DNA of 64,000 nucleotides from contig JAENRP010000021.1 in assembly GCA_024741835.1 (NCBI GenBank), positions 1-64,000 of the forward strand. The letters run 5' to 3'. The notes beneath the pieces are model-generated. The model was given only the letters and a program-made list of their open reading frames with translations. It did not search any database and was not told the DNA's origin. This DNA comes from Diplocarpon mali. Lineage: Eukaryota > Ascomycota > Leotiomycetes > Helotiales > Drepanopezizaceae. A program made the position numbers and the translations under genes. Positions 3,125 through 24,352 of this stretch are shown in pieces; position 1 is the stretch's first letter, and the number at the start of each line of letters is the position of its first letter.

Positions 3125-4160
3125 TGCCTCCTCCCCTTATAATTCCTCCAACCCCTCCTCCTCTGCGCTTAAGGAGATAAGCTCCAACTCCATTCTAAAG
3201 CTAGAGCTCGCCTCCTATCTACGCCCCTGCCTAAAATAACCCTAACCTCCTCTTGCCGCCGCTGGCGCCGCCCTACTAGCCGCTGCGCCTGACGCCACCC
3301 TTATTACTGCAAGCCCCCCTCCTCTTATAAGAGACTCTACTACTATAGCAGTCCGCTCTATTAACGCAGCGATAGACCCTAAGAGGCTTAATATAGTTCG
3401 GCTGGATTGCTTTAACCTTGCTAGCTAAGACTTAATAAGGTTGCTGCGCTCCTATTAGAAAGTTAGCAATTGATTTAATACTAATTCGGGTTAAACTTAT
3501 AGCAACTATTGCTTAAACCCCCTTTAGCTAGCTTGCTATAGCCTTAGCTATAGAGTAAAGCTCTGCAAGGCTAGCACGCTCCAGTTGGAAGCGGCTAATC
3601 GAAGCCTTTGCGCTAACCATTAGTAGGAGGTTGACGAGGATCTAGGCGCGCTAGACCGCCTCTTAATAGAGCATCTCGCAGTTCCTTGCCGAAACTATAC
3701 GCGCGTTATCGTCGTCTTTATCATCGTCCTCCTCTTACTGCTAGGAAGCCTCCCCCTGCCACTCCTCAAGGGCCGCGGATAGCGCTGCGAACTCCTTACT
3801 AATATAAGAGGGAAGCTATAAACAAGTATTAGCGCAATTAAAACTTTAGACTTAATTCGAGGTACTTATAGAGATGTATTCTACCTTTTGCTCCTAGTAC
3901 TAGTAGCACTTCTTATTATACTCTAATTCAAACTCGTATTCGTACGCAATATCGCGCATAAGACGCCGCATATACTGGTAATAACAAACGCAGTAGGCTA
4001 CTGCAAGGGCGCCTGATAGTAAAGGGATCGGCACTACGCGTATTAGACGCGATTCGACCCTAGACTAAGGTAAACTTACTTATAGTAGTTAGTAGTAGTA
4101 GTAGTAATTGTTTCTACTACTATATATTAGCCCTGCGCTATAGTAGTAGGAGTAAGGGAC
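3125..4160 (-). pseudogene. Antisense reading frame in the 3' part of the Ty3 element
   Basis: Between the chromodomain and the 3' LTR the minus strand keeps one protein-like frame broken only by TAG/TAA. It is rich in Ala, Leu, Glu and Arg. Visible stretches include SKEFAALSAALEEWQGEAS, an acidic EEDDDKDDDNARIVSARN, and SRFQLERASLAELYSIAK. A Lys/Arg-rich, Cys-containing tail follows (GACSNKGGVRRSG). The block is more GC-rich than the pol region. I do not recognise the family. It could be an extra gene carried by this element lineage or a captured host fragment. Ends are approximate. Confidence 0.5.
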
Positions 4161-4362
4161 CTATGCAGTTATATATAGTTATTATACTAAGGAAGGAAGA
4201 TCCTATAGGAGGAAAAACAAATTTAAGTATATAATGCGACTTGCGCTAAATTAAATATAGAATAGTACCATTCGCATAACGATGCACTAAGCATATTACT
4301 ATATAAAAATCGTCACGACCCACCAACGCTTATAGGCAAGCGTTCTCAAAGGGGGGAGGTAG

Positions 4363-4678
4363 TATAATAGCTATACCCCCAACTGATACAATTACCCAAG
4401 AGTACGGCATTTATAGCGTTTTAAGGTTTTGCAATCTCGATTCGATATAGGGTTATTTCGAATCGACCCTAAAGGTATAAAAGGATATTCTTATATAATA
4501 TCATATAAATAGGCAAAGAGCCTTAAGCTGCTAATGTATATAAGGGAAAAGGGCTCTCCTATAGAGAGGGCTCTCTAACTTCTTTGTTTCCTTTATATTA
4601 GACCTATAGAATACGCCTTTTGCACCACTTCTTGCTCCCATACTTGATCTCGCACTTTGGCGGTTCTGTATCGTTACA
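4363..4678 (+). repeat. 3' LTR of the Ty3/gypsy element
   Basis: It starts TATAATAG after the purine tract (RIP form of TGTAATAG) and ends CGTTACA, so the ends form a short TGTAA/TTACA inverted repeat. About 316 bp. The matching 5' LTR is not in the window, so the right end rests on this terminal repeat alone. Confidence 0.6.
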
Positions 4679-4945
4679 GCTACTTCTATAACAGTGCTTA
4701 TAATATTACTAATTGTAAAGTTAAAAGGCAACTGATCGATATAGTTGCTAGCTTTAATATTAAAAAGCAATCGAAGCAGAAGTTAAGAAGCAAACTGCCT
4801 TTATCCTGCCGAAGGCCGCAACTACTAAGGAAAGGCAAAGGAAAAGGCTATTTAGCTAAAACTTTAGCAAATACCTTTAATAATAATAGTAGGTTATCTG
4901 AACTTAAATCCATTTCTAATAATTTAGATAATAATTATAATAAAG
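4657..4945 (+). pseudogene. Copia B gag/pol fragment left of the insertion
   Basis: An open frame of basic composition (SKQKLRSKLPLSCRRPQ, RKGKGKGYLAK) runs up to the target site of element A. Its first codons lie in the end of the Ty3 LTR, so the true element B part starts near 4,679. Its continuation lies at 10,530. Too short to assign to gag or protease with certainty. Confidence 0.5.
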
Positions 4946-5183
4946 TGTAGCAATGAGGTTCTCTGATAGTGAACTTGATAGTAAACTAGAAGAGGGCACG
5001 AAGAAGTATGAGGTGCAAACGACGATGTTAGGTGTCTTGTCTTAATTCATAAGAGCTCTCTAACTACGAGCTATTTAACAAGGGCTGCCACTAAGTCATA
5101 TAGCAAGTCATATGACATATCATATGTATAATGTATTATATGACAGATCATATAACAAACATATAACGGGCATTCCTGCAACA
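4946..5183 (-). repeat. 3' LTR of copia element A
   Basis: It begins TGTAGCAATGAGG and ends CCTGCAACA on the plus strand, preceded by the TAAAG duplication. It is a direct repeat of 10,287-10,524. Its internal hairpin (see 10,448-10,485) is partly erased by CA-to-TA changes. Confidence 0.92.
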
Positions 5184-5360
5184 CACCCCTCTAAGGAGAC
5201 CTTTAAAGGTACTCGCTAGCAACATATGTGATGTTATAACTTTTGTTATAATCTACAGTTTCGTATGAAAAATCAACCTGCAGATATAGGAAATAGAGTA
5301 GAGTTCGCTAGTGCGTTCTACTCTAGAGTAGGAAATCCACCCCTTAGTAAGTTAAAAACA

Positions 5361-5383
5361 ACTCGCGGGCCCGGCCTAGGAGT
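5361..5383. repeat. 23-bp GC-rich palindrome, copy A1 (non-coding)
   Basis: One of 16 copies in the window. The consensus is ACTCCCGGGCC, one central base, then GGCCCGCGAGT; the two 11-bp arms are complementary except for position 5/19. This copy lies just after the pol stop of element A. Confidence 0.75.
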
Positions 5384-5467
5384 AAAAAAATCACCCCTTA
5401 ATAGAAGTGCAAAAAAAATCACCCTATAGTAGAGGTGCAAAAAAAAATCACCCCTTAATCGAGGTGC
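5384..5467 (-). repeat. Triplicated end of the element A pol frame
   Basis: Three head-to-tail units of 27, 28 and 29 bp each carry an A-tract, TCACCC and GAGGTGC-like sequence (5,384-5,410, 5,411-5,438, 5,439-5,467). The last unit includes the pol stop codon, so the very end of the coding frame was copied twice into the 3' untranslated region. A 23-bp palindrome copy (5,361-5,383) directly adjoins the array. Confidence 0.7.
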
Positions 5468-7249
5468 AGAACCTTCATATTTAACAATTTAATGAAGGCG
5501 GCGTGGTTGGAGCTATTTAAGCTCTTGGTAAGTCCATCGGCGGCGTTGTCTTTAGTATTCGTATACTAGAGATCCAAATGTCCTTTCCGAAGCTCTTGCC
5601 GAATATAATGGAACTTAATATCGATATACTTCGTTCTCTAGTGATATTCGGGATTTTCGGTGAGATGAAGGGCTCCCTGGTTATCGCAGATCATCTCGAC
5701 TTTAGTGGCGTCGTCGCCGGCGTAGCCCATTTCCTTAAGTACTTGGCGTATCCAAGAGGCCTCTTATGCGAATTTGCACATAGCAACGTACTCTGCCTCT
5801 ATAGATAAGAGAGCGACAATAGTCTGTCGCTTAGAGGAGGCGGTAATCACGCCATTATTAAGGAAGAAGACGGCCCCAGAATAGGAGGCTCTACTTCCTC
5901 TATCACCTGCCTAGTCAGAATCGCAGTAGCCGTGCAATTTCTAAAGCTCTAAGTCAGTTGTTTTGCTTCCAAAGGTAGTACAATAGAATCGCGTTCCCTG
6001 CAAGTACTATAAAACTCGTTTTAAAGCTGCTATATATTATAGCGAAGGGTTGGTAAGGAATTTGCTAAGAATAGAGCAGTGGTATAGTATATCCCAACGC
6101 GTATAGTGCGCAAGGTACTATAGAGAACCACAGATCTCCTAGTACAGCTTCACTTCCTATAGAGTGGCTTGGCCTTCAAATTTGACCATATGAACTTCAC
6201 AGCCACTGGCAAAAGGCGTTAGTACGCTCTTGCAATTAGTCATATGAAAACGTTTAAGAACCTTATCAACGTAGGCGTCTTAACAAAGTAAGATCGTCCT
6301 ATTTTATCGATCTCTGACTATACGTACTCCCAAGAAGTAGTTAGCCGGTTCGCCACCTGTGATCTCAAAGAGGTTGCGAAGATCTCTCTTGAACTTATCA
6401 TATATATCACCCTTCTTTGCTACCACGAGGAAGTCGTCAACGTAGGTGATAATAAGAATCCAAAAGGCGCGGTTGATATATACGCAATTGTCAGTATCAA
6501 GAGGTTGAAAATCGAGCTTTTATAGCTCGGACCGTAGCTTTTCTTACCATAGTCGTAGAGATTACTTCAAGCCATATAAGGCCTTAAGAAGCTTGAGACA
6601 GTAGTCTTAAGGTGAAAGAACGACCTTGTCTTAAGTGTATCCAGGAGGTAACTTGACGTAGATATTAGAGTCAGCTTCTAAATTGAGGAAAGCTATCTCG
6701 ACGTCGAACTGATCTAGCTCGAAGTCGTACAGCGCTGCGAGCGCAATTGCGATCTTCCAAATCGCAGATTTGCAAACTCCAGCAAATGTCTAGTTGTAAT
6801 CTCGACCTTGTCGTTGCATATAGCCTTGCACGACGAATCTGACCTTCCATCGGGAGATTTCCCCATTTTAGTCTCTTTTTGTTTTGAAGACGAGTCTCGA
6901 TCCGAGTACTCTATCGTCTTTAGAGAGTTCTAAGCGTTTCACCACCACCCATGTGTTCTTATAAGCGAGGGAATTGTACTCAAAGTTGATCGCAGATCGC
7001 CATTTGTCGGCGTCGGCGCGAGAGAGGGCTTGTTCGACTGTTTTCGGGTCATTTAGGTAAGGAGAGTCGAGTAAGGCCATATGGAAGGCGCCTAAATAGG
7101 CTTCCTTATCATTAGAGTTGTCAGCGTTGAATCCAAGAGCAGTAGAGCGAGTAGCTCTCTTCTCAGAAGTCTAAGGGTGAGTCTTATTCTTAGAGCCAGG
7201 AGGTCTTCCTCTCTTTCTTAGAGTTGGAAGCTCAGCTTCTCCTGAATCG

Positions 7250-7344
7250 ACTCGCGGTCCCAGCCTAGGAGTGAAATCATCGTTATCGTAAGAGTTAGCA
7301 TTATCGTTATTTTGAGAATTGACTCGCGGTCCCGGACCGGGAGT
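7250..7344. repeat. 23-bp palindromes, copies A2 and A3 in the IN-RT linker
   Basis: Copies at 7,250-7,272 and 7,322-7,344 start 72 bases apart, a multiple of three. On the minus strand A3 reads TPGPGPRV and A2 reads TPRLGPRV inside the disordered linker between integrase and reverse transcriptase. The flank GGGGTGATTT before A3 also occurs beside copy A1. Confidence 0.75.
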
Positions 7345-8755
7345 CAAATCACCCCTCAATTGAGAAGAGGAATTTTCCTTAAGGTATAGCTCTGTAATCA
7401 GGCCATCTTCATCGAATCGAACGTGAGATGATCGAATAATCTTATCACCTATTCGCAATAGCATATAGATTTGATAGATACTTCTGCTATCAAATCCGAT
7501 AAGAGTACCTACCTCTACTCTCGGAGCGAGTTTGTTGCTCTAAGTTCGCCTTTCTTTCTCGATTAGCATATAGACGCAACAGCCTAGTACTCGAAGATGC
7601 TTGACTAAGGGAGTATAAGGTTTATCAGGCTCGATATTATCCCAAAAGACCTTATATAGAGTCTTGCCGCCGATAATATCAGAGGCGGTAAGATTGGTGA
7701 TATGTATCACCGAAAGGAGGAGGTAAGGCTAGAGAAAGGAGGGGATATTTTAGTCAATTACAGCTATTCGCAACTTTTCCATTAGTGTGCGAATTAATCG
7801 TTCCGATCTGCCGTCTTATTCTAGTATATATGGAGTAGATTCCTCCAAAATCATACTAAGGTTTTCTGCAAGTATTCGCATTTGTATAGGAGAGTATTCC
7901 TTGCCTCTATCAGTTCTCTACCGCTTGATTATGCGATTGTACTAAGTTTGTAAGAGGCTGATCATCTTCTTATTTGCCTTAAAGGCGTTAGATTTGTTTA
8001 TATAGGTCCATCCCTACTTAGCCATCGTAGCTGCGCAAGTGAAGATAGAAGCGTATTTATGACTATTAAGGCCAGTTAGCTTCAGATGAACCACGTCGAC
8101 GTATAGCTCGTCAAGTGCCTTCGTAGGTCAAGGGCGAGCTGAACGTTTATTAATGTGTCGAAGAGGTCTGCCTTTCTCGCAAGGGGCGCAAATTCGCGTC
8201 TTCCTTGATTTTGTTTCCTTAATCTGCATATCGGTGATAGCAGATTGGGTCTTTCTAACTGTTTGTAGGCCAGCATGGCCTAATCGACGGTGCCAGAGCT
8301 CAATATCAAGAGGTCTATTCTCAATTGCAGCTAGGAGAGCATGTCCACTTACGTAACCAGAGGAGTTAGTAGAAGGCTGTTCCTTATTAATATACATATT
8401 ATTATCGACAGTGCAAATTTCCTTCTCATTAGATAGGAACAGCTTGCCATTTCAATAGAAGCCTTTGATTTTATTGAGTTTGCTACTTAAGTATAGGCAG
8501 ACAAGTGATTAAGGTATATAGAGAGTATTAATTAACTTAAGAATACACACCTTTCCATTAGATTTGAGTGCATTGACTTTGCAAGTGCCAACGCCGAGAG
8601 GTTGAACAGATCCATTAACTGTACTTAAGGAGGGTAGATTGTCTCGAGCAGTATAGGAAGTGAACTTGGAGAGATCATTAGAGACGTGCTTACTAGCACC
8701 TGTGTCGTACAGCTAACGATTCCTCAATTTTGATAAGAAGTAGGTAGAAGAACTG

Positions 8756-8832
8756 ACTCCCGGGCCCGGCCCGCGAGTGGAAATTGGCCCTAGGGAGGAG
8801 TTGGAATTGACTCCTGGGCCCGGCTCGCGAGT
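8756..8832. repeat. 23-bp palindromes, copies A4 and A5 in the gag-protease linker
   Basis: Copies at 8,756-8,778 and 8,810-8,832 start 54 bases apart, in frame. On the minus strand they read TRGPGPGV and TREPGPGV, the other orientation of the same palindrome, just before the protease motif. Copy A5 is also in frame with A3 (1,488 bases apart). Confidence 0.75.
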
Positions 8833-10273
8833 GAGAATTGGCCCTGGGGTTAGTAATGGCATAGTATGCCCAAAGAGGTTATGATCTGACTCTTCGTCTT
8901 CCTTTTGAATCTTCCTAGAAGGCTTCTTGCCCTTTGGTAATGATGGCAAGGACTTGTCGTCCTTGCCTTTAAGGTGACGGAATACGTACTTCTTCCCTGA
9001 ATCCTTCTCCCAAGCCTCTCTTTTCGATTTATTAATTGCAAAGCAATCTTCTGCCTTATGGTATAGCTCTGGTTGCTTGCAATAAGGATAGGGGGAGTTG
9101 GGGGAGTTGGTAGTATTCCTAGAGGTGCTCTTCTTTAAGTCTTTAAAACCTCCCTTGTTTTCTGACTTCTTATAGTCAGAGGAATACGGCTTGCTAGCCG
9201 ATTTGTTACCGTATAAGACGGTTCCGTTCATCTTTGAACTCTATAAGGCTCAAGCTTCGTTAGTGATATCTTTAATAAGAGCTTCGAGCGTGATCTCTGA
9301 TTTTCGTCCAGCTGCTATAGCTAAGCGAAGGTTAGAGCGTTATCGATTTGCCCAAATGGGCCATCTATTGGAACAGCTAGCAATAAACATAATAGGGTGC
9401 TAGTGAAAGGGAGGGGCAGAGTCGAGAGCTTCCAATTTAGTGATTAAAAGCCTAAAAGCGACGATATAAGCTTTAAGTGAATTGAAGTCGTCATATTTAA
9501 TAGTGACGTAGGTCTATATAGCGTTATATTCAAGCACTATTCCAGATCCTTCGTACTGTTTTTAGAGAGCTTCCCATATATCCAAGGCAGATTTATCGCC
9601 TTCTATATAAGCTAGTAGGCCTGGTTTACAATTAAGTGTAATAGCAAGCTTCATTTAAGATTCCTCAGCTTCCCATCTAACCCAATTGTCCCTTTCCTCA
9701 TTTGTAATAGAACGGTCCCACAAGTCAACCTTAGGTGGAGCATATGTTCTAGCTTTTGTATAAAGATGCATAGTCAAGGCGTTTGACTTTGCAAGGTTCA
9801 AAACCTTATTCCTCTACTAGCTATAGTCCTCTGCGCCTTTAAGCTTTTAAGACTCAAGGAGGCTAAGGGCAGCTGAAGACAACGACGACATCTTATTTAT
9901 ATATTTGTATATAGAGTTGTCGAAAGGAGAAGGTAGAGAAGGAGGAGGAGGAGGAGATGAACTATTGAATTCGAGTTTAAGGTACTATATATCAGTCCCT
10001 TTAAAAATAGGTGATTCAGGCAGTGGAGTACTTTCAGCAATTAAGCTGGTAATCTCAGCTGTTAGTCCTAATGATTCAGCCATAATGACGAATCTTGCGT
10101 GAGCTTGGATTATTGCGTAGCGCTCCGAAAGGGGAGTAGCCACTGTTTTATTATTAAGATGACGCTTATTATGCGTCGTTGGTTGAGTAAAACTCAAAAT
10201 ATCGATCAGCCTTTTCGTTTGTAAGGGAGACTCTGATCGATGGAATTTTATCGAATGCTATTTATAGGCATAC

Positions 10274-10286
10274 GGGGCTCATAACC
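10274..10286 (-). other. Primer-binding site of element A, half initiator tRNA-Met
   Basis: The plus strand reads GGGGCTCATAACC right beside the 5' LTR, so the minus-strand element RNA carries GGTTATGAGCCCC. This is complementary to the anticodon stem-loop of initiator tRNA-Met (GGGCUCAUAACC), not to the 3' CCA end. That matches the half-tRNA priming known for Drosophila copia and related hemiviruses. Confidence 0.75.
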
Positions 10287-10524
10287 TATAGCAATAAGGT
10301 TCTCTAATAGTGAACTTGATAGTAAACTAGAAGAGGGCACAAAGAAGTATGAGGTGCAAACGACGATGTTAGGTGTCTTGTCTTAATTCATGAGAGCTCT
10401 CTAACTACGAGCTATTTAACAAGGGCTGCCACTAAGTCATATGGCAAGTCATATGACACATCATGTGTATGATGTGTCATATGACAGATCATGTGACAAA
10501 CATGTGACGGGCATTCCTGCAATA
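10287..10524 (-). repeat. 5' LTR of copia element A
   Basis: It begins TATAGCAATAAGG (RIP form of the other copy) and ends CCTGCAATA, followed by TAAAG at 10,525-10,529. Same length as the 3' LTR, 238 bp. It should hold the element's promoter, reading leftward. Confidence 0.92.
10448..10485. repeat. Perfect 17-bp stem-loop inside the LTR
   Basis: GTCATATGACACATCAT is followed by a GTGT loop and the exact reverse complement ATGATGTGTCATATGAC. The equivalent place in the 3' LTR has the same layout with several CA-to-TA changes. It may act in transcript ending or as a protein-binding site, but the sequence alone does not say. Confidence 0.8.
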
Positions 10525-10529
10525 TAAAG

Positions 10530-13500
10530 ATGCTTATATCTTAAAAGCCGATCTTCGTAAGATCCTTAAATCCAATTAGTATAATGATACTAGTTGTATA
10601 GCATATATAATTAATAAACCCTACCTATTTAAAGGCCTGCTTATTAAAATAAAAAGGCGCTCTATTAAGGTTAATAGTAGAAGGTTGTATATAGACTCGA
10701 TAGGTATAGTAGAGATAAATATTATTAGCATTTCTTTCCTTTTATAAAATATTCTCTTTATACTTAGCTTAGGTATTAATCTTTTATTTAACTATAAGAT
10801 CTATATAGAGTTAAATTATATAGGAGTTTTTAATAATCAATTTATATAATTTATAAATAATAATTATAAAGTGATCTTTAAGGCTAAAATCAAAGATAGA
10901 CTTTATATTATTTTAAAGGTAATATTATAGAAATTGACTCTTAGGCCGGACCTATAAGTGGATTCCTTTAAGGAAAGTGCACTCTCTACCTTAATACAAT
11001 TAAGCGAGGATAAGGAGAATAGATAAACTCCTAAGCTAAGATTATAAGTAAAATTTGCGAAAATGACTCTTGAGCCAGGACTATAGGTAGAGTATAAGGT
11101 GTCTCTTAAGCTAGGATTATAAGTGAATTTGGTAGAAATAACTCCTAAGCTAGGACTGCGAGTGGATTTTGCAAATTCGCTAATAATAACTCTTAGGCTA
11201 AGACTGCAAGTGAAATTCGCGAATTTATTAAAGACGACTCTTAAGCTAAGACCGCGAGTAGATCTTGCAGTTTTATTAAAAACGACTCCTAAGCCAGGCT
11301 TGCAATTGGAAAATGGCAAAACCTTAAACTGCTATTACTAGTCCTTTCTAGCTATTAATAATAAAGTATTAACTAATAATAGGCTATTAAAGCTATTAGA
11401 AGCTAAAAGCCTATTAAGGTATTAGCTAATATATAGAAGATTTGTATATTTAAGGCTAAAGAAATTAAGGGGCTTATATAAGGTCTCGACTTTAAAACGG
11501 AAGATCTAAGTACTAAAGGATCGCTTAGTGTGCCGAATTTGCAAGCTAATAAAACTTCGAAATCAAATGCAAACTAAGCTTAGTTTATAGAAAGATTCGA
11601 TACTAGCGCTAATATCTATTAATATTACTAGACTATTTATAACCTTAATTAAAAGAAATAATTGGTTTTCTTAAATAGTAGATAACTTTACTTAGCAAAT
11701 ATAGACTATTTATACTAGGACTAAATCTAAGCTTATAGAAAAGCTAGAAACTTAAAAAGTGATAAAGGAACGCTAGACTTAGTTAAAGCTAATAGCTATT
11801 AGGTTTGATAATATATTAGAGATTAAAGTAAAGCTTAATAAATAAGTAAAATAAGGAGTTTGTTATAAACTAATTATAATATATAAAGGTTCCTATTAGA
11901 ATAGCATCGCTAAGTAAAGCATTTAGCAAGCAAAGACTAATTGTTGCGCTTTACTATAAGATACTAACTTGCTATTAGAATTTTAAGACCTTGCGATTAA
12001 GGTAGATATATACCTACGAAATAGAATAGGTAATAGACTAATAGTTAATAGCACTTAAATATCATTATATAAGGTATATTTCAAATAGAAACTAAGCTTG
12101 GACTATATCTGCGTCTTTAAAAGCGTCTACTACTCCTATATCAGCCTAAAGTCCTAGCCCGCGGGTATAAAGAGTAAGAAGCTAATAGACTAAGGTAAAG
12201 AGTATATATTTATTAAGTATATTAAATAAATAATAAAGCAATAGATAGTATATACGCTAGACCTAAGGCAAGTAATCATATCTTTAATAGTTGAGTTCGA
12301 TAAATCTTAAAATAGGGGAGAGCTATCCTTAAAGCTTTATATACCTAGAGATTTATAAGGTATACTACTTAATAGTAATACTATTAAGCCGAACTAATAA
12401 CCTCTCTCTTTAAGCTTAAGTATATTAAGCGCACCTACTGATCGACGACCTGCTAGTCGCCTAAAGGCCGAATAGACTATTCCTATTATTTGCAAACTGC
12501 TTAAAGTATAGAATAACTTTAATATTATTATCCCTTTAGTTAAAGTACTTATAGTAAAGGATATTTTTAAAATAGGTATAAGTAATAATAAGCCTTTACT
12601 ATTAGAAAGCGGTTCTTTAAATAATAAGCCTATAGAACCTATAGCTAAACTTACGCCTTTAAAGAGGAATAGAGACTTAGAACTAGAAGATACCTTAGAT
12701 AAACGCGAGTTTAAGCGTATCTAAGCTATAATAGCGTATAGGATCTATAAGCTTGAACTCTAATAGAGCTTTGATAAAGATAATGCGTTCTTAACCACTA
12801 AGGGGATAATGAAAATCTCTCTTTTAAAGATATACGACAAAGCTATTAACAACTTAGAGAATAGAGTAATATAGAATAAGGCAATCTAAAAGGAGATAAG
12901 CTCTCTTATTATAAATAGTATATAAATAAAGGAACCGATGCTAAAGGACGTAAACCTAGTATTAATAAAGTGGGTCTTTATAATTAAGATATATATAGAT
13001 AGGACCTTAGAATATTATAAGGTAAGGCTTATAGCTAAGGGCTTCTCTTAATAGTATAGAGAAGACTACTTCGATACGTTTGCGCCGATAGTTTATATAG
13101 ATACCCTTTATATATTTATAGTAATAGTAGCTGCTAAGGACCTTAAATGCAAATAGTATAATATTAAAAATACATTTACTAAAGCGACTATAAAGGAATG
13201 GATTTTTCTCTCTTAACCTAATAGTATTCTTATATGCGTTAGCCACTCCCTTTATATACTCCGCAGTATCTATAGGCTTAAATAATCAGCTTATGATTAG
13301 AACTTCTTATATAGTTCTACTTTAGTAGAAATAGGATTTGTTTAAAGCCTAGCTAACCCTTATCTATTTACCTATATTAAGTATAGAATTAAGTTGCTAC
13401 TATATATTAACAATATTGCTATAGCTGCGAAAATAACCATTTAATTAGATTAGTTCTTTATAATAATTTAAAAACGTTTTAATACTAAAGATTTAAAGAG

Positions 13501-14403
13501 AATTTATAAGATCCTTAGTATCTATATTATAAGGAACCGCTCTACTTAAGAACTCTAATTAGATTAAGAGTAGTATATTAAGAAGATCCTAGACTAAATA
13601 GGACTTTCTACTTATACTCCTAACTTTAAGCCAAAGTGTACTCCAATCAAAGGAAAGTATGATAAGTTAAAGCCTACTAATAAAAATAAGTAAAGAGGAG
13701 ATCTAAAGAAGTACTAATAGGATATTAAAGCAATTATATATACTATAGTATATATAAGATCAGATATCGCCTTTATTATTAGGCAATTTAATCAGAACTT
13801 AAAGGATCTAACGATTTAATATAAGAATATAGTCAAGCGACTTAAAAGGTACCTTCGATTGATAATCATATAGAAGGTGAGATATAGACTAATAAAATAT
13901 ATAAGCGCAAAGCTTAAGGTATATACCGATTCCGACTAGGCAAATATAAAAGGTCGGAAAAGTATATTTAAAAGTATAGCAATACTATATAGTAGACCTA
14001 TATTATAAGGAAGTAAGAAGTAGAAATCAGTAGCTATCGCAAGCACTAAGGCTAAATATATATTAATATTATCAAATTGCAAGCAAGGATTATAAATTGC
14101 CTAAGTTCTAAAAGATATAGGTTTTGCTAAGTATATTAGATAAGATAGGAATTATATTAATCTTTAAATAGATAATATAAAGGCAATTACATTTATAAAG
14201 AATCCATACTTATATAAGCGATCGAAATATATCAATATTACCTACTACTTTATTTATAACCTTATTATAAAGAATAAGTTATCAATTACTTATATCCTAA
14301 CCGATCGAATAGTAGCAAATGGATTTATAAAGCTATTAAAGACGGTTATAAAGTTCAAAGCATTTAAAGATATGCTAAGGTTGCAGAAGATAGTAAGGGC
14401 TTA
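10530..14403 (+). pseudogene. Copia element B pol remnant, heavily RIP-mutated
   Basis: Plus-strand frames show a decayed protease region (NDTSCIAYIINKPYLFKG near 10,585), an eight-copy palindrome array, integrase C-terminal pieces (near 12,140-12,230), RT pieces (EDYFDTFAPIVYIDTLY near 13,060; LLLYINNIAIAAK near 13,395, from a YVDD-type site) and RNase H (VYTDSD near 13,920; KAKYI near 14,050; KFKAFKDMLRLQKIV near 14,355). Stops are dense, so this copy is dead. The divergence from element A shows that it is a different copia family. Confidence 0.8.
10937..11307 (+). repeat. Eight-copy array of the 23-bp palindrome in element B
   Basis: Copies start at 10,937, 11,027, 11,066, 11,102, 11,141, 11,189, 11,237 and 11,285. 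Every spacing (90, 39, 36, 39, 48, 48, 48) is a multiple of three. On the plus strand they read as TPKLGLRV-like octapeptides separated by short variable spacers, in the linker after the protease region. The in-frame spacing implies that the array grew while the frame was still under selection. The last copies are the best preserved. Confidence 0.8.
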
Positions 14404-14418
14404 GCAGGCTTAAGAACG

Positions 14419-14572
14419 ACTCCTAGGCCTGCCCTGCGAGTTAGGTTATATAGTCTTATAGAGTAAAGTTTTTTTTTTTAGATCGACTCCTAGGCCTAGA
14501 CCGCGAGTCAAGTTATATAGTCTTATAAAGGAACGCTTTTAGAAATTTGACTCCTAGTCCCGCCTTACAAGT
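14419..14572 (+). repeat. Three 23-bp palindromes after element B pol
   Basis: Copies at 14,419-14,441, 14,486-14,508 and 14,550-14,572 lie between the end of pol and the 3' LTR. Their spacing (67 and 64) is not a multiple of three, in contrast to the coding copies, which fits a non-coding location. Confidence 0.75.
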
Positions 14573-14910: not shown

Positions 14911-15922
14911 TGCCAATTGCACGCAAGCGACTACGCGCCACGATTTGTATATGCATCTCGGCTCACATACGATTCTGCACATTGTGCACCGCACGCAGCG
15001 CCGATATCTCACTGACTGCAGCTCTGTCCGCCTGGTGCTGAGGACATCGCTTCATAGCATCTCCGCGCGTGGCTGCACCCACATCCTCTCGTCGTTGATC
15101 GCTGGGTGTCTCGAACGCTCGCGCTCGCGCGATACCTGGGCTCATGTCAGGCCGAGAATTTATACTGCAACTCGCAGCACTACGGTAGGTTAGTGTAGTC
15201 TTGGGCCACGGGTAGTATGATGGATACATCATTGTAGCAACCTACCGAGAGGGTAGCTGCAGTCGGGGAGGTATATTCGAGGTATATTCGGCGTATATTC
15301 GAAGAGTATTCGAAGAGTATTCGAGGAGTATTCGAGGTGTCTTCGAGGTATATTCGAGGTATATTCGAGGAGTCTTCGAGGAGTCTTCGAGGTATATTCG
15401 GGGTATATTCGAAGAGTATTCGAAGAGTATTCGAGGTATATTCGAGGTATATTCGAGGTGTCTTCGAGGGAGGATATCCAGCAAGTACATCCCAGTGAGT
15501 ACATTCCAACCAGTACGATCCAGCAACACCACTCCTATTCGTACGGTCCCATATTCGCTGATCGGCGCGTCTCTCGACAACCACACCAGGAACCCCCCAG
15601 GTCCCTCTCTGCTTGTGCTTCACACGGGAGAGAAGTCTCGACGAATTGCAGTCCGGCCTGCCCGCGACCCACGGCTCGGCGGGATATGCCTCTGATCTTG
15701 GTCTCGGTCGTGCGGTTTCCTTATCTTCAGCCTCCCGACTCCGACCCCACGTCCGGGAGGCCATATCATACCTGTGATTATATAACCCGCTCCCACTCCA
15801 GCTCCAGCTCCAGCTCCAGCTTCGTCCTGCCAGCATAATTCCTGCCCCTGCACCAGCCCTCGTTGCCATCCGCTGGCTCCAAACCGAAGCATTGCAAGCT
15901 CGCACTCGCACCGGCAGCGACA
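14911..15922. other. Intergenic region upstream of the NCS1 permease
   Basis: This is non-repetitive host DNA except for the minisatellite at 15,270-15,467 and a short CAGCTC run near 15,795. Open frames on both strands overlap the minisatellite or mirror low-complexity DNA; I see no gene. The last few hundred bases should hold the permease promoter and 5' untranslated region. Confidence 0.6.
15270..15467. repeat. 11-bp minisatellite, 18 units
   Basis: Eighteen head-to-tail 11-bp units with consensus GGTATATTCGA; variants are AGAGTATTCGA, GGAGTATTCGA, GGAGTCTTCGA and GGTGTCTTCGA. The TTCGA part is nearly invariant. Variants alternate in a higher-order pattern rather than at random. As 11 is not a multiple of three, all minus-strand frames read through it as similar 11-residue repeats (RIYLEYTSNTP-like), which produces long but meaningless open frames. 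Confidence 0.9.
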
Positions 15923-23900: not shown

Positions 23901-24352
23901 TTGACAAGGAAGGGCACTCATGCAGCAAAACCAGAGGTGTAAAAAGGTCTAAATGAACATGAGCTAATAATGTCAGGAAACACCTTAACAAAACACAACG
24001 GTACAGGAGCCTGGATTTCCTTCATCTGATTGATACTGGTCACTAAAGCGCGGAAACAAGCAGGCGAGCAGAAGCATAGCAGCAGATCACACGGAGCATT
24101 AAAATATAGGTCCAATCCCAGAGTCGTCGCGCGATCACCTCTGTTTTCAAAAATAAGCTATCAACTCCATCTACTGGTAGTAGCCTACTTGTACCCCCTC
24201 CATGCAACCCACTTACCGAACCTGCACCGCATCAAGTCAGCTTCTCCTTTCCACTCGCAAGCCAGGTCAGGGTGAAGAAAAGCATACGCAGCGGCAAAAG
24301 AGAAAACCAGGAGCGGAAAAACATTTAATAAAAAAGAGGAGTAGAGGACGAC
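20958..24352. other. Gene-poor intergenic region with possible decayed coding
   Basis: Contains TATA-like boxes (GATATAAAAGG near 21,375; TATATATAAA near 22,320) not followed by a convincing gene. Around 22,936-23,330 one plus frame stays open for about 130 codons without a usable ATG, and after a TGA continues to about 23,460 (TVDGLFEPPLRSRIKNVLF). It may be the remains of a gene. No RIP signature or LTR is evident. Confidence 0.4.

Follow-up and report, generated by a model that had tools for sequence, protein, structure and literature searches.

The window analysed here is a 64,000-nucleotide stretch of the Diplocarpon mali genome (assembly GCA_024741835.1, contig JAENRP010000021.1, positions 1 to 64,000 of the forward strand), and our subject is a 23-bp GC-rich near-palindrome that recurs between positions 5361 and 14572 within two copia retrotransposons, elements A and B. 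Of the 16 copies that a first-pass annotation of this DNA had counted, we located all: element A has five and element B has eleven. Element A (4940..10522, minus strand) is a degraded copia retrotransposon, recognized by a long terminal repeat (LTR) pair (4940-5181 and 10281-10522; 93% identity across 242 bp) and by minus-strand Pfam domains (RVT_2, Retrotran_gag_2, SH3_retrovirus, and Pol_BBD) that lie in one frame when stops are read as X. Its integrase-reverse transcriptase (RT) linker holds two in-frame copies (7250..7272 and 7322..7344, minus strand) spaced by 72 bp, and its gag-protease linker holds two more (8756..8778 and 8810..8832, minus strand) spaced by 54 bp; these are likewise in frame but inverted relative to the integrase-RT copies, encoding TRGPGPGV and TREPGPGV, respectively, such that both orientations occur on one coding strand. 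The fifth copy (5361..5383, minus strand) lies past the end of pol and adjoins three tandem 28-bp units (5384-5468), each with a T tract and GGGGTGATTTT.

Element B is also a copia element, with a heavily mutated reverse transcriptase (RVT_2 by Pfam; 12944..13627, plus strand). Upstream of it is an array of eight palindromes (10937..11307, plus strand), all in the phase of the RT frame, which start at 10937, 11027, 11066, 11102, 11141, 11189, 11237, and 11285 (spacings of 90, 39, 36, 39, 48, 48, and 48 bp); the copy at 11102 is very degraded (18.4 on the transition-tolerant score used below), and a 48-bp tandem repeat occupies 11136-11294. Three further copies (starting at 14419, 14486, and 14550; 14419..14572, plus strand) are found at the downstream end of the element. 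The spacing described in the first-pass annotation is borne out: in the A linkers (four copies) and the upstream B array (eight copies) the spacings are multiples of three and the phase is that of the RT frame, while 5361 and the B end group, with gaps of 67 and 64 bp, fall outside the threefold series. The same annotation had placed copies at the end of pol; more precisely, 5361 is ∼70 bp beyond the last open stretch of pol (5565-5458), in untranslated DNA. When the window was searched for the 23-mer with at most three mismatches, there were five matches at four sites (8756 being matched on both strands), as compared to none in 100 shuffles.

The first-pass annotation had also proposed that the whole genome be searched, and in the window's own assembly (49.4 Mb, 676 contigs) we found copies to be abundant beyond the two copia families. 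The pattern ACTCNNGGGCCNGGCCNGNGAGT, with up to three mismatches allowed, matched 2545 times on the forward and 2578 times on the reverse strand, as compared to 13 and 8 times for the reversed control, although many sites are counted on both strands because the motif is a palindrome. In 20 evenly placed 10-kb pieces from nine contigs (200 kb; eight AT-rich pieces totaling 80 kb and 12 GC-balanced pieces totaling 120 kb), scored with tolerance for transitions at a cut-off of at least 24 that was picked after looking at the data, the AT-rich sample contained 30 sites and two simulations of AT-rich sequence contained none. The GC-balanced 120 kb had no site at score 24, and 2 and 13 sites at the looser cut-offs of 22 and 20; the GC-balanced portion of the window has one weak match, at 24253-24275 (score 26.4). 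Thirty sites per 200 kb would correspond, as a rough figure, to of the order of 7,000 copies in the genome. For context, two assemblies of D. coronariae measure 51.5 and 50.7 Mb, with LTR/Copia elements at 20.74 and 20.45% and Ty3 elements at 5.67 and 6.20%, as reported in PMC11527701. The motif is far richer in GC than the DNA around it (mean 0.62 versus 0.40 in the flanks of 309 sites), and the shuffles, the reversed control, and the simulated sequence together rule out a chance origin. The copies in the window would not be mitochondrial, their contig being 259 kb, longer than the 77.6-kb mitochondrial sequence of D. coronariae (PMC11527701). A COX1 match, which might have marked mitochondrial DNA for comparison, was not found in the assembly. 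A prokaryotic origin was rejected: exact matches were absent from the prokaryote collection (genome_contigs), and the single exact match in viral_contigs was taken as chance, since its contig is 70% GC, has a second, weak match (score 25.3), and shows no array.

The palindrome occupies approximately two dozen positions with unrelated flanks. The 309 sites in the loci we fetched fell into 33 flank clusters (25 bp per side, 66% identity, a level reached by 0 of 20,000 shuffled pairs), 12 of which are members of the family B array, and the families concerned are the two copia families, a Ty3/gypsy family (E), and several unidentified repeats. Family E (locus L015, 6993-10000, and locus L024) has a single frame encoding RVT_1, RNase H, and Integrase_H2C2, and its palindromes are found ahead of the RT (in 45-bp units) and again in the stretch separating RNase H from integrase; wherever domains are known, the palindromes sit in the linkers between them. 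These findings bear directly on the simplest account, in which a linker peptide grew by tandem duplication in one copia lineage. Units appear to have been gained and lost in the integrase-RT linker of A, and B has its 48-bp tandem, yet the same 23 bp recurs outside copia, in Ty3/gypsy and further repeats; some copies are untranslated, and both orientations occur. The gypsy domains of family E and the 33 clusters with unrelated flanks refute such growth as a full explanation, and we regard it as very improbable; the outcome that the first-pass annotation had set against a mobile unit, a fixed part of one copia lineage with no copies elsewhere, is not what the gypsy and other repeats show. It is also improbable that ordinary recombination or gene conversion moved the palindrome between linkers already sharing Asn, Ser, and Asp codons, the hairpin itself playing no role. 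The spacers inside the A array are alike and codon phase is preserved, as modular homologous exchange of this kind would predict, but the flanks of different clusters are unrelated across 25 bp on each side, and some sites are untranslated.

Family F (L010, ∼3900-9200) has six palindrome positions in one frame and two tested stretches with coding-type substitution patterns; the two coding stretches are similar to one another, and the family is high-copy and heavily mutated (40 of 239 and 40 of 250 candidates were scored). No Pfam domain was found in F, the sole Pfam match in L010 being an Integrase_H2C2 outside it (∼base 214-384); NCBIfam gave matches only at E values of 0.02 or worse, one piece had no PDB sequence match, and none of 1206 candidate proteins matched at an E value of 0.001. 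Family F is possibly an undescribed element. At another locus (L011, 4519-8277) a copy of element A is split by a nested 1.86-kb repeat, family C, which is also present in L015 and has no Pfam match; both copies of C examined have the palindrome, degraded in one. Family H was found through a sequence-pattern search.

All nine positions whose frame could be checked share a single codon phase, reading as a TPxPGPRV-like octapeptide. The phase was taken from Pfam-domain frames for the A gag-protease linker, the A integrase-RT linker, the B array, and the two E positions (before the RT and between RNase H and integrase), all of which begin with ACT, and is shared by F positions 6603, 6789, 8019, and 8841; transversion diversity in the F stretches peaks at third codon positions (0.063 versus 0.025 and 0.027; 0.051 versus 0.015 and 0.011). 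Positions 4074 and 4959 of F are in the same frame as these four and are not counted among the nine. A common phase for nine free positions would arise by chance approximately once in 6,600, a figure that is less extreme if some of the positions are homologous. The first-pass annotation was right that the motif reads as Pro/Gly-rich octapeptides in either orientation, the reverse copies giving the TRGPGPGV and TREPGPGV noted above. Because ACT forms the first three bases of 287 of the 309 sites, and because 5361, though untranslated, does not differ in sequence, we conclude that the sharing is at the level of DNA. At the protein level, the gag-protease open reading frame (ORF) of A had one relative at an E value of 0.001 in a search of limited sensitivity, a D. 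coronariae protein with 82% identity, whereas a 411-residue piece of A spanning the integrase-RT linker had 194 homologues, with Podosphaera and Rhynchosporium proteins among the 120 listed. A narrow regular expression for the octapeptide matched none of 121 proteins (those 120 and the D. coronariae protein), and the integrase-RT linkers of 11 aligned homologues are unrelated in sequence.

One could envision that such a motif is a functional signal, whether a protein-binding DNA site, a packaging or dimerization hairpin in RNA, or a functional linker peptide (a processing site, for instance), taken up by unrelated elements and kept fixed by selection. Its fixation in 21 of 21, 80 of 80, 13 of 13, and 9 of 9 copies at the sites described below, its constant codon phase, and its location in interdomain linkers of polyproteins would fit, as would the folding of two bare 23-mers, whose energies of −12.7 and −15.4 kcal/mol surpass those of most shuffles (z = −2.3 and −2.6). 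The suggestion in the first-pass annotation that the element RNA needs a structure here may or may not hold: a 35-mer has a z of −1.5, and the form in the 3′ untranslated region (UTR) of A, T tracts included, gives −6.0 kcal/mol (z = +0.4), which is no improvement on shuffles. Of the 33 cluster representatives, only 23 can form stem pair 4-20, 22 can form pair 7-17, and 23 can form pair 9-15. Since several pairs are thus broken in about one-third of the representatives and the 3′ UTR form resembles shuffles, a conserved RNA stem is not demonstrated, and Rfam gave no match at the gathering score. The number and place of the copies, moreover, vary widely by family (A has three kinds of site, the L010 sample has nine sites scoring 24 or slightly less, and copia family D has none), and coding and untranslated copies have the same 23 bp. 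We therefore consider a recruited signal unlikely.

Within families, the palindromes are largely fixed. Both copies in the A gag-protease linker align without gaps in 21/21 elements, the 3′ UTR palindrome of A is present in 80/80 genome pattern matches (an empty site was sought among these 80 and not found, with a pattern that tolerated only two mismatches), and the family F 23-mers align in 13/13 and 9/9 copies, some of them degraded, including a subfamily that is ∼77–81% identical. The integrase-RT linker of A is more variable: among 39 copies (the window and 38 of 40 other matches, one partial match having been dropped and two merged as one region), two palindromes are the rule (28 copies), with three in 10 copies and one in a single copy, and the spacers measure 22, 25, 31, 43, or 49 bp. 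Most of this variation resembles the addition or removal of local units of 45–72 bp. In the window, the spacer from 7272 to 7322 is 49 bp and is without the extra middle copy found at locus L096. At three loci (L131, L133, and L134) the spacer is an uninterrupted 43 bp that includes ATAATACTRACTC, within which L096 has an additional 30 bp composed of TTTTC, the palindrome, and TA, and this looks like a filled and an unfilled site. Comparison of element copies for presence and absence thus yielded one 30-bp pair, the other sites examined being fixed. Of the mobile or self-amplifying microelement envisaged in the first-pass annotation, what holds is spread beyond one family into places with unrelated flanks; movement or self-amplification does not follow, given positions fixed within families. 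The spread is old enough for fixation in each family.

The borders of the palindrome may hold a further clue to how it spread. At 24 hand-picked sites with differing flanks, a pyrimidine was present at −2 in 24/24 and a purine at +2 in 24/24. When the similarity of each site's own left and right flanks was compared to that between flanks of different sites, direct matches were in excess (p = 0.0264, 0.0054, 0.0036, 0.0030, 0.0162, and 0.0264 for 6, 7, 8, 9, 10, and 12 nt, or 0.065, 0.018, 0.003, 0.003, 0.023, and 0.067 with transitions tolerated). Inverted matches at the 24 sites were not significant (p = 0.09 to 0.77 overall, and 0.14 to 0.35 for 7 to 9 nt), and a reading of the flanks as an extended palindrome was accordingly rejected. 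These results are suggestive of a short target-site duplication, as might be left by a micro-transposon acting at the DNA level, namely a very small miniature inverted-repeat transposable element (MITE) or a nuclear counterpart of the GC clusters of yeast mitochondria, moved in trans by an enzyme, with selection imposing the phase. Such an element could account for the flanking direct repeats and the constrained −2 and +2 bases, for both orientations on one coding strand of A, and for the presence of the palindrome in untranslated DNA and in family F, which has no known RT. It accounts less readily for the absence of sites at score 24 from the 120-kb GC-balanced sample, or for the single phase of the nine checked coding positions, although other phases are also free of stops, and we think it somewhat unlikely.

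One short sequence, then, has come to occupy numerous unrelated sites across several families; both orientations are represented, and most copies share a codon phase. The explanation that we favor, and to which we give about even weight, is that of a dispersed, codon-phased, GC-rich palindromic micro-repeat carried by the retrotransposons of this fungus, an old passenger that spread between retroelements, perhaps during reverse transcription. Speaking for it are the genome-wide excess over the reversed control, the occurrence in two superfamilies and in 33 flank clusters, the common phase of the nine positions, the sharing at the level of DNA, the direct-repeat flanks, the 30-bp pair of loci, and the lack of the octapeptide pattern in the 121 proteins. 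Under such circumstances, a unit of ∼25–30 bp would have inserted between short direct repeats in AT-rich DNA that is either linker-coding or untranslated. Strand transfer would be the most plausible route, with a GC-rich hairpin in an AT-rich template stalling the polymerase and causing it to switch from one RNA to another; the phase would be set by short repeats (AAT, GAT, TCT) that are themselves codon-phased. Selection would then keep those insertions that read as harmless Pro/Gly octapeptides or that lie in untranslated DNA, after which each family would inherit its copies, and recombination between neighboring copies would alter their local number by units of 45–72 bp.

Several observations weigh against this explanation. 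Direct-repeat tests in a fixed register were not significant (p = 0.10–0.73), and with 42 less independent sites the p values for 8, 10, 12, and 15 nt were 0.0035, 0.05, 0.105, and 0.22; because many settings were tried, the flank evidence is at most suggestive of a short target duplication. Deletion with TA microhomology explains the single filled/unfilled pair equally well. As to phase, two sites of L010 (9266 and 1426) depart from the frame of the F sites, perhaps because they are untranslated or belong to different ORFs. Substitutions by codon position, moreover, showed no coding pattern in the RNase H-integrase stretch of E and a weak one in the gag-protease linker of A and in family H. 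The reverse-transcription route is unproven for family F because it has no recognized reverse transcriptase, and copia family D (RVT_2) had no site at score 24 in three copies. Family D is a 7.6-kb element with end repeats of ∼195 bp, and its copies are at L020, L024, and L026.

A separate repeat was seen in the window just outside the AT-rich block, where ∼18 copies of an 11-bp tandem repeat, GAGGTATATTC (15268-15469), read as repeated peptides in several frames on both strands.

Palindromic repeats are known from other systems. The GC clusters of yeast mitochondrial DNA (GC42 and others) are, as described in PMC4478555, short GC-rich palindromes in AT-rich DNA with putative short target duplications; the palindrome described here shares with them its GC-rich character amid AT-rich DNA, but the clusters are mitochondrial, mostly intergenic, and variable between strains, whereas the fungal palindrome resides on large contigs within retroelements, is for the most part in coding phase, and is fixed by family. 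Repetitive extragenic palindromes (REPs), 20–40 bp in length and of high copy number according to PMC3733652, are similarly short and numerous, but are prokaryotic and extragenic. The tandem palindromic coding repeats known as PARCELs, outlined in PMC2996958 as dispersed within and between the genomes of bacteria and eukaryotic microbes and tied in some taxa to mobile elements, have 75-bp units coding for 25-residue amphipathic repeats, in contrast to eight mostly Pro/Gly residues in retroelement linkers. In the open PMC literature we found nothing on coding palindromes in nuclear fungal retroelements, although palindromes of mitochondria did turn up. With thousands of copies in multi-copy retroelements, this palindrome amounts to a naturally replicated experiment from which insertion, phase, and local duplication could be quantified. 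It is also relevant to the question of whether tiny hairpins can be ferried between unrelated elements by reverse transcription.

The closest parallel is with the Rickettsia palindromic elements (RPEs) and the related repeats of Wolbachia and Methanocaldococcus, which are described in PMC10969869 and PMC2996958 as palindromes lying in frame at assorted sites of unrelated proteins, typically in non-structured segments; in the same sources, short stand-alone in-frame coding palindromes come from Rickettsia, Wolbachia, and one archaeon, while the longer PARCELs extend to eukaryotic microbes. The fungal repeat is likewise a near-palindrome in frame at unrelated positions of unrelated proteins (copia, gypsy, and family F). 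RPEs are ∼150 bp, prokaryotic, and in cellular genes, whereas the fungal unit is 23 bp, with short constrained borders, and its sampled copies are in AT-rich repeat DNA. Because the size does not fit and no insertion into a cellular gene was seen (the 120-kb GC-balanced sample had no site at score 24 and the window one weak match, at 24253; there was no gene-by-gene search), we do not class the palindrome as a member of this group; by analogy, it would nonetheless appear to work like the coding palindromes of Rickettsia. A bolder formulation, which we advance tentatively, is that of a mobile palindrome in a eukaryotic nucleus, only ∼25 bp in length, which resides within retrotransposons and crosses between superfamilies in codon phase. 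It would be a transposon of transposons, whose hosts stay functional because it spreads in phase, and the counterpart of the coding palindromes of Rickettsia.

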